From Synechococcus sp. MW101C3 (lineage in GTDB: Bacteria; Cyanobacteriota; Cyanobacteriia; PCC-6307; Cyanobiaceae), in NCBI RefSeq assembly GCF_002252635.1, contig NZ_NQKX01000007.1, positions 186,001 through 250,000 of the forward strand: a stretch of 64,000 nucleotides of DNA. The letters run 5' to 3'. Of this stretch, positions 62,167 to 64,000 are shown in pieces (the first letter of the stretch is position 1; each line of letters starts with the position of its first letter). The notes under the pieces were generated by a model, which saw only the letters and a program-made list of their open reading frames with translations, did no database searches and had not been told where the DNA came from. A program made the translations under genes and the position numbers.

Positions 62167-64000
62167 TCAGCTGCCACGGTGAAATGGGCAGACGGGTGAT
62201 GGCTCTGGTTCAATGCCGTAAGTGGTATTCCCCCCACAGTTACGCCAGGGATCGGGCTGGAGGAAGAAGTTCGGCTTGAGGATCTGGGAACCATCGAAGT
62301 CGGCGTGATAGGTGGGAGTGAGTGATGCGGAGATCGGCGGAACCACATAGCGAGGCTCCACCTCCACGCGTCTACCGCACTGGTGCTCGCTGGCGGCAAA
62401 GTCCATGAACGATCGCGTGAGGGTGTGGTGATCCGCCATTCGCACCCCTGCTTGCTCGAAGGAGTGGAGCACCGCCACATTGAGTTCCACCACGGATCGG
62501 TCTCGCCAGAGTGTGCGCTCGGAGCTGATATCAAGACCGAGTTTTGCTGCGATCAACGGAAGCTGGTTGTAACGATCGATATCGGCAAGGTTACTGGCGC
62601 CGATCTCAGTGCCCATGTAGAAGCCGTTAAAGGGTGCAGCGGTGTACTGGATGCCACCGCAATCGAAGGCCAGATTGCTCACCGCAGGCAGGGCATACCA
62701 GCGCAGATCGAGATCAGAGAACCAGCTGTAGCGTGGATGGCTGATGGACACTTCCAGGATGAGATCCGGTGGCAGTTCGAAATAGCGCGGCTGCCGGCCC
62801 GGAAGCTGAATCACGATTGGCAACAGATCGAAGCGGGTCCACACGCCAGGATTCCAGCCCATGGCCAGCAGGGCCTCGGTGAGTTCCAATTGCATCGGGT
62901 CGCCGAGCACCGAACCATCGGGCTGTCGGTATCCGGCATACCGACAGAACTGGGGATTCCAGATGCGACGCCCATCCGGCTTGAACACGGTGATCGTGGA
63001 AAGCAACTGACCGCCGTTGGTGGCCGCCTCAATGTGTTCAACAATGGCGGCGAACATCTGTTCCTCGCTTTCAAGGTTGCGGCGGTCGCGCACATCAAGC
63101 TCTTCCCAGAGGTGTCGGCCCAGGCAGCGGGTGCTGTTGCGCCAGGCCAGCCGGGCACCGTAGGCAAGCTCGTCATAGCTGTGGTGATAATCCCCATCAC
63201 GTTGCAGATGTTCCTCCACCTCGCTGAGGCGTGGGCTGAGCACATCGCCTAGATGCTGTTCCCCATAGCACTGCTGCAGAAAAGCTCTGGCCTCTGCGGG
63301 GCGATCGTGGATTGGCAGCAGCCTGGGGCTGGAGGCCACCACCGGCTGTATGGACGGCGCCTGCAATGGCGGGCCGAGTGGCGGGTTCAGTGGCGAGGTC
63401 GAGGCGTCCGCCCCGGGAGGCATCGGGCCACCCACCGCCAGCCAGCTCTCGATCGTGGGAATGCAACCACCGCACACGGTGGTCGCCTTCGTCTGGCGGG
63501 CCAGGCTGGTGATGGAAGGCCCTGACTCCTGGCTGATCAACTCCGCCAGGCGGCCACAGCTGACGTGAGCGCAGCGGCAGATTGGATCGGCGGGTCTGCG
63601 GGGCAGCTCCTGCTCAAGCTGGAACCGGCCGCTCCGGCGAAACAGCACCACCATCCAGTGGGGAAGCGGCTCACCCTTAATGAAAAGCCCCTCGACGCGG
63701 TTGAACTCAGCCCAATGGCCTCGCAGCCGGACCGCCACAATCCGCTGTTCCAGCAGTGTGAGGCTGCGCACGAGATCCCCCTGGCTCCAGGTGATCTCCT
63801 CACCACCGGCAGGGCCATCCCGCCAGCGCAGTGCAACGTGGCGAAAATCGATCGTGCGCTCGATCAGCGCGACCTGACCATTGCTGAGGCGGTAAGAAAA
63901 CAGCAGAGCGGGGTGGCCTTCCGTGCGGCCCGCACGCCGGCTGAGAACACCGAGGGCCGGCAGGATCTCCACCGGAATCCAGTCGATCACCCTGGAGCGC
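62167..64000 (-). CDS. Nitric oxide synthase oxygenase fused to an N-terminal BFD-type [2Fe-2S] domain (5' end outside window)
   Basis: At least 607 residues (counted from GTG 63990); the frame stays open to the window edge. Residues ~228-585 are a NOS oxygenase domain, which converts L-arginine to citrulline and NO. The heme Cys is in AWRNSTRCLGR (Cys289) with Trp295 nearby. Substrate Glu462 is in GFYMGTEIG; PFNG, DRYNQLP, RTLWRDRSVVELNVAVLHS and DHHT all match bacterial NOS. Residues ~135-186 are a BFD-like [2Fe-2S] domain (CRC at 138-140, CGGC at 173-176). A Pro-rich linker joins them. Residues 1-130 are unrecognised. The pterin-site WxW is changed to PRY. No reductase lies downstream. Confidence 0.92.
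   Translation of the reverse strand, partial: RSRVIDWIPVEILPALGVLSRRAGRTEGHPALLFSYRLSNGQVALIERTIDFRHVALRWRDGPAGGEEITWSQGDLVRSLTLLEQRIVAVRLRGHWAEFNRVEGLFIKGEPLPHWMVVLFRRSGRFQLEQELPRRPADPICRCAHVSCGRLAELISQESGPSITSLARQTKATTVCGGCIPTIESWLAVGGPMPPGADASTSPLNPPLGPPLQAPSIQPVVASSPRLLPIHDRPAEARAFLQQCYGEQHLGDVLSPRLSEVEEHLQRDGDYHHSYDELAYGARLAWRNSTRCLGRHLWEELDVRDRRNLESEEQMFAAIVEHIEAATNGGQLLSTITVFKPDGRRIWNPQFCRYAGYRQPDGSVLGDPMQLELTEALLAMGWNPGVWTRFDLLPIVIQLPGRQPRYFELPPDLILEVSISHPRYSWFSDLDLRWYALPAVSNLAFDCGGIQYTAAPFNGFYMGTEIGASNLADIDRYNQLPLIAAKLGLDISSERTLWRDRSVVELNVAVLHSFEQAGVRMADHHTLTRSFMDFAASEHQCGRRVEVEPRYVVPPISASLTPTYHADFDGSQILKPNFFLQPDPWRNCGGNTTYGIEPEPSPVCPFHRGS

Follow-up and report, generated by a model that had tools for sequence, protein, structure and literature searches.

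The source of the electrons used by bacterial nitric oxide synthases (NOSs) has long been an open question, since most of these enzymes have no reductase whereas the NOS of Sorangium cellulosum (scNOS), reported to be self-sufficient (Agapie 2009, as cited in PMC9311577), has its own. EF-hands and a BFD domain have already been noted in the Sorangium enzyme (PMC7400543), and calmodulin-like EF-hands fused to NOS and to NADPH-oxidase/ferredoxin domains have been described in cyanobacteria and deltaproteobacteria (PMC7016017), so that a BFD domain as such is already known in this setting. The NOS of Synechococcus PCC 7335 (syNOS) has globin-type domains before its oxygenase and a diflavin reductase, and is without BFD (PMC6104048, PMC12922734). 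NOSs of the Bacillus/Geobacillus type are oxygenase-only and have neither BFD nor N-terminal domains. The picocyanobacterial NOS analysed here pairs BFD and oxygenase as Sorangium does; what is new is the probable loss of the flavin module with the [2Fe-2S] domain kept, together with a remodelled pterin site. We found no published description of a flavin-less BFD NOS in the literature searched, which covered only a minority of subscription journals.

The window, by which we mean the whole 64,000-nucleotide stretch of DNA analysed (C7:186001-250000 of a 3.03-Mb genome, 99.99% complete), ends inside the NOS gene. The minus-strand frame is open throughout 62167-63999, and the window edge truncates the gene, so that the 607-aa ORF read earlier is partial. 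The gene lies on a single contig (G000:C7) in an open frame of 928 codons; the complete ORF (L002:8168-10936, minus strand) has 922 codons, 312 of which lie past the window edge. Alignment with the protein of Cyanobium sp. FGCU6 and the local sequence point to a TTG at L002:10882 as the likely start, giving 904 residues. This start codon and the stop codon of the ORF before it overlap in the tetranucleotide TTGA; the corresponding FGCU6 junction is ATGA. Reading past the window edge also exposed an N-terminal part with EF-hand and NmrA-like character that is absent from the partial ORF.

The earlier note had proposed that a BFD module stands directly N-terminal of a full NOS oxygenase in one protein. 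The profile search that it called for bears this out: both domains were significant in one unbroken frame, with NO_synthase (PF02898, E 3e-143; 480.8 bits versus a cut-off of 22.7; model positions 7-361 of 362) at residues 547-897 and Fer2_BFD (PF04324, E 4.4e-8; 33.8 bits versus a cut-off of 26, and 39.0 bits in a genome-wide search) at residues 452-499, and no other Pfam domains were found in the whole protein. A frame break or assembly join between the domains was also looked for; it is excluded by the 928-codon frame and by the same fusion in the independent assembly of FGCU6 (L005). The features that fall in the window are as follows.

62167..64000, minus strand: NOS gene, C-terminal 610 residues; runs on to L002:10882 (TTG) or 10936 (GTG)
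62245..63297, minus strand: NOS oxygenase domain (PF02898), aligned to the Geobacillus and endothelial NOS oxygenase structures
62347..62355, minus strand: Pro861-Arg-Tyr863, replacing the Trp-x-Trp of the pterin site (residue table, structure alignments)
62593..62595, minus strand: Ser781, codon AGT; Arg in the other 71 aligned NOSs (residue table, structure alignments)
63298..63438, minus strand: Pro-rich linker of 47 residues, where relatives have a FAD_binding_6/NAD_binding_1 module of about 235 residues (alignment, domain table)
63439..63582, minus strand: predicted BFD-type [2Fe-2S] domain, CxC-x32-CxxC (PF04324)
63610..64000 and just past the window, minus strand: beta-rich domain of 8 strands, no Pfam family (profile match across relatives, AlphaFold2 models)

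The predicted cluster ligands, Cys453 and Cys455 of the CxC motif and Cys488 and Cys491 of the CxxC motif, are kept in the BFD-bearing relatives in the alignment. In the oxygenase, the heme-thiolate Cys604 (63124-63126), the substrate Glu777 (62605-62607) and the proximal Trp598 are in register with 71 relatives in the residue table. The window protein gave no Pfam match and no subfamily-profile match to FAD_binding_6 or NAD_binding_1, and no Pfam match to globin domains or a C-terminal diflavin reductase; the oxygenase is its last domain.

Relatives were sought by scanning genome contigs from 84,980 species. Near-full-length relatives are encoded by Cyanobium sp. FGCU6 (about 65-67% identical to the window protein), a Spartobacteria MAG, S. 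cellulosum, Microseira wollei, a cyanobacterial MAG and a deltaproteobacterial MAG. Residues 295-895 are matched by a protein of a Euryarchaeota MAG (L013). Further relatives were found in other families of the cyanobacterial class (two) and in another branch of the phylum (one). Relatives on plasmids were oxygenase-length matches only, none covering 80% of the query. Pfam and the subfamily profiles gave a common domain order of an NmrA-like domain with EF-hands, the beta domain, BFD, FAD_binding_6 plus NAD_binding_1, and oxygenase; the eight-stranded beta domain stands before BFD throughout the subfamily (profile matches). The flavin module is missing in three sequences, namely the window protein, the FGCU6 protein and L013.

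Comparison with scNOS defines the difference most closely. Both proteins have an EF-hand region (putative in the window protein), BFD and oxygenase in the same order, they are homologous over residues about 100-903, and trees and alignment indicate that the oxygenase and the N-terminal part of the window protein share descent with the Sorangium-type NOS. However, in scNOS BFD and oxygenase are separated by FAD_binding_6 and NAD_binding_1, which the window protein lacks; the latter also differs in its putative EF-hand loops, of which the first is intact and the second degenerate, and in changed pterin-pocket residues. With no FAD/NAD module in its chain, the window protein falls, by its domain content, outside the self-sufficient Sorangium type. 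The earlier note had set BFD before NOS apart from the Fe2S2/FAD/NAD arrangement of Sorangium as another way of feeding electrons to the heme. That distinction falls, as the Fe2S2 domain of Sorangium matches PF04324 (E 2.7e-10) and is a BFD domain too, homologous to that of the window protein. The EF-hand/BFD NOSs of filamentous cyanobacteria (M. wollei L015, G375 L092 and G349 L093) belong to the same subfamily and are alike in their other domains, but carry the flavin module. With syNOS the window protein has a cyanobacterial NOS oxygenase in common, and the long cyanobacterial rows (1325-1362 aa), presumed to be of syNOS type, branch far from it in the oxygenase tree. The Bacillus/Geobacillus-type enzymes share the oxygenase family, the heme Cys, the substrate Glu and the absence of a flavin module, but form a separate clade.

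In the N-terminal part, structure models (AlphaFold2) were made of the window part and of FGCU6. The N-terminal half of FGCU6 was modelled with a mean pLDDT of 80. In a fold search, residues 1-300 of this model were similar to NmrA-like/atypical SDR proteins (Z up to 13.7, with 197 residues aligned at an rmsd of 3.8; the Foldseek E-values were weak, the best being 0.0075). The EF-hand region is apparently inserted in an NmrA-like fold, about 197 of these 300 residues being alignable. The beta domain (about 300-420 of FGCU6) had no convincing fold match in a search that barely covered the region. A profile of the N-terminal half had calmodulin-type EF-hands among the PDB matches listed. Pfam scored the Sorangium EF-hand pair above the cut-off and an EF-hand of FGCU6 below it, and detected none in the window protein. 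Of the two EF loops of the window protein, the first (DRDGDQILDVEE) retains the ligand positions and the second has lost its ligands; control by Ca2+ through the remaining loop is thus possible, with less support than in Sorangium.

We asked of the trees whether the flavin module was lost or had never been acquired. In the oxygenase tree of 72 sequences, the window protein pairs with that of FGCU6 (100/100), and the sister of this pair is the FAD/NAD-bearing Spartobacteria protein (100/97), within a flavin-bearing clade. The shared-domain tree, with the flavin columns excluded, placed the same Spartobacteria protein as sister (97/97). A first AU test of the FAD/NAD-bearing rows was confounded by a partial NOS (L021) outside the group, and its result is replaced by those of two clean tests, in which the flavin-bearing rows as one clade were rejected both on the shared-domain tree (p 0.0005) and with a 30-row oxygenase set without L021 (p 0.003). 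A common origin of L013 and the picocyanobacterial pair, the three forms without the flavin module, was not rejected (AU p 0.13), and the place of L013 is unsure because of its very long branch. Since the window protein and FGCU6 nest among the FAD/NAD-bearing proteins, the FAD/NAD(P) module was most likely lost, with BFD kept, in an ancestor common to at least two picocyanobacterial genera. A freed copy of the module was sought in the genome with the Microseira module as query, which matched nothing but one 395-aa ORF, and that faintly (E 0.06); a split reductase encoded elsewhere in the genome was thus not found.

The rarity of NOS in picocyanobacteria, also claimed earlier, was confirmed: of the genomes examined, 2 of 400 in the family and 1 of 3 in the genus had a NOS, and at the level of the phylum 13 of 386 had one scoring above the cut-off. 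This sporadic distribution and the verrucomicrobial sister suggest horizontal transfer. The gene has PstS-like, CorA and CHAD neighbours on one side and, on the other, a 213-aa ORF and a transposase remnant; no reductase gene was found beside it. The 213-aa ORF (L002:10879-11520, minus strand), just beyond the window end, overlaps the NOS start, belongs to no Pfam family and contains an EELGHH motif resembling a metal site; in FGCU6 a weakly similar 73-aa ORF occupies the same place and overlaps NOS as ATGA. The transposase-gene remnant (L002:11700-12760, minus strand; HTH and IS481-type leucine-zipper matches, 120-aa ORF) lies just upstream of the NOS pair and may be a trace of mobility.

The 395-aa ORF is the only FAD_binding_6 match in the genome and, read from its sequence, is the photosynthetic ferredoxin-NADP reductase PetH; Fer2_BFD was found in the NOS only. 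The explanation that we favour, and hold to be reasonably probable, is that a Sorangium-type NOS lost its FAD/NAD(P) module and kept the oxygenase and the BFD cluster, so that the enzyme would receive single electrons in trans, ferredoxin and/or PetH feeding the heme through the BFD cluster. We infer these donors by exclusion and from general knowledge of cyanobacterial electron carriers, which make ferredoxin/PetH the likeliest. The window NOS can be regarded as a natural deletion experiment, in which the flavin module is gone and the presumed [2Fe-2S] relay has been kept under selection. It offers a way to learn whether a ferredoxin-like domain is enough to couple NOS to the cellular electron pool, which in this host is mainly photosynthetic ferredoxin.

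Selection bears on this explanation and on its alternatives. The dN/dS of the window gene versus FGCU6 (ratios of Nei-Gojobori values) is about 0.2 overall, 0.17 in BFD and 0.11 in the oxygenase; these values are rough because dS between the two picocyanobacterial genes exceeds 1 and is near saturation. All four cluster Cys residues, the heme Cys, the proximal Trp and the substrate Glu are retained in both proteins. These observations indicate that BFD and oxygenase are under purifying selection and speak against decay of the gene.

It could be argued that the BFD domain is a sensor of redox state, NO or O2, or a structural leftover, and that, as in Bacillus NOS, ferredoxins, flavodoxins or reductases of the cell pass electrons straight to the heme. 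Oxygenase-only NOSs, which were present in many of the genomes examined, are reported to use non-dedicated reductases (PMC6104048, PMC9311577), so that BFD need not be the conduit, and Fe-S clusters react with NO (PMC9311577). However, the four Cys residues are kept and the BFD ratio is about 0.17 although the two proteins have diverged to 65% identity, and BFD directly adjoins the flavin module in all the FAD/NAD-bearing relatives whose sequence was read through both domains, all of which would be predicted of a relay rather than a sensor. We therefore regard a sensor or leftover as unlikely, though it deserves serious consideration.

The relay itself could have another partner. BFD domains, as in bacterioferritin-associated ferredoxin and NirB, are normally reduced by flavoenzymes of the FPR type or the pyridine-nucleotide-disulfide type, and in NirB the BFD domain is in one chain with a FAD module of the latter type. 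A separate pyridine-nucleotide-disulfide flavoprotein, as in NirB/Bfd partners, might accordingly serve as dedicated BFD reductase in place of the photosynthetic chain. The BFD stretch does match the NirB model (NCBIfam TIGR02374), but no flavoprotein gene adjoins the NOS gene, and we give this arrangement a low probability.

Much the same low standing belongs to the view that the gene is decaying, or makes a product other than NO, after the loss of the reductase. It draws on the second EF-hand loop, which is without ligands, and on the pterin pocket, where three near-invariant residues are changed (R to S, W to P and W to Y). The position of Ser781 is that of the Arg contacting pterin and heme propionate in animal NOS. 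The two Trp positions of the pterin site carry Arg and Tyr in FGCU6, the Spartobacteria protein and Dolichospermum, and Trp in almost all other sequences; the changes of the Trp positions are thus common to flavin-bearing relatives, and Ser781 is private to the window protein among the 72 sequences. Absence of the conserved Arg and Trp pair lowers the claim of ordinary tetrahydrobiopterin use, though not that of family membership by descent, and the remodelled pocket could lead to weak or altered catalysis. The Val/Ile switch position is Val, as in animal NOS. PTPS-family genes were found in the genome, which would leave pterin synthesis in the strain possible. Against decay stand the full-length frame, the oxygenase dN/dS of about 0.11, the kept heme Cys, proximal Trp and substrate Glu, and an architecture common to another genus; NO is the presumed product in the explanation favoured above. 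The changed pocket raises a second question, that of a NOS without pterin or with a different one.

A more far-reaching form of feeding in trans would be a light-coupled NOS, in which ferredoxin reduced by photosystem I passes both electrons to the heme through the fused BFD domain, the cluster replacing the pterin radical as its pocket is lost. We put this forward as a speculation with little chance of being correct; if true, arginine-derived NO would be gated by photosynthesis with neither a dedicated flavoprotein nor tetrahydrobiopterin. Finally, that the FAD/NAD-less form is ancestral and the module was gained later is very improbable: L013, likewise without the module, stands apart in the tree and can be united with the picocyanobacterial pair (AU p 0.13), but its very long branch makes its place unsure, and the pair is nested in FAD/NAD-bearing rows, the alternative being rejected in both clean tests.

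Two relatives have unusual surroundings or domains. BFD is otherwise familiar as a partner of bacterioferritin, and in the Euryarchaeota MAG a ferritin-like gene (L013:4234-4704; PF00210, E 5e-16) directly precedes the flavin-less EF-hand/BFD NOS (L013:4738-7443), on a contig of only 7.7 kb. NOS was detected in 1 of 293 genomes of that MAG's phylum and in none of the 292 others, and the phylum therefore offers no clade for comparison. In G268, from the same phylum as the window strain, two cyclic-nucleotide-binding stretches (PF00027, E 2e-45) replace the NmrA/EF-hand part of the NOS (L091:5343-8621) and are followed by BFD, the FAD/NAD module and the oxygenase, so that this protein is possibly a NOS controlled by cyclic nucleotides.
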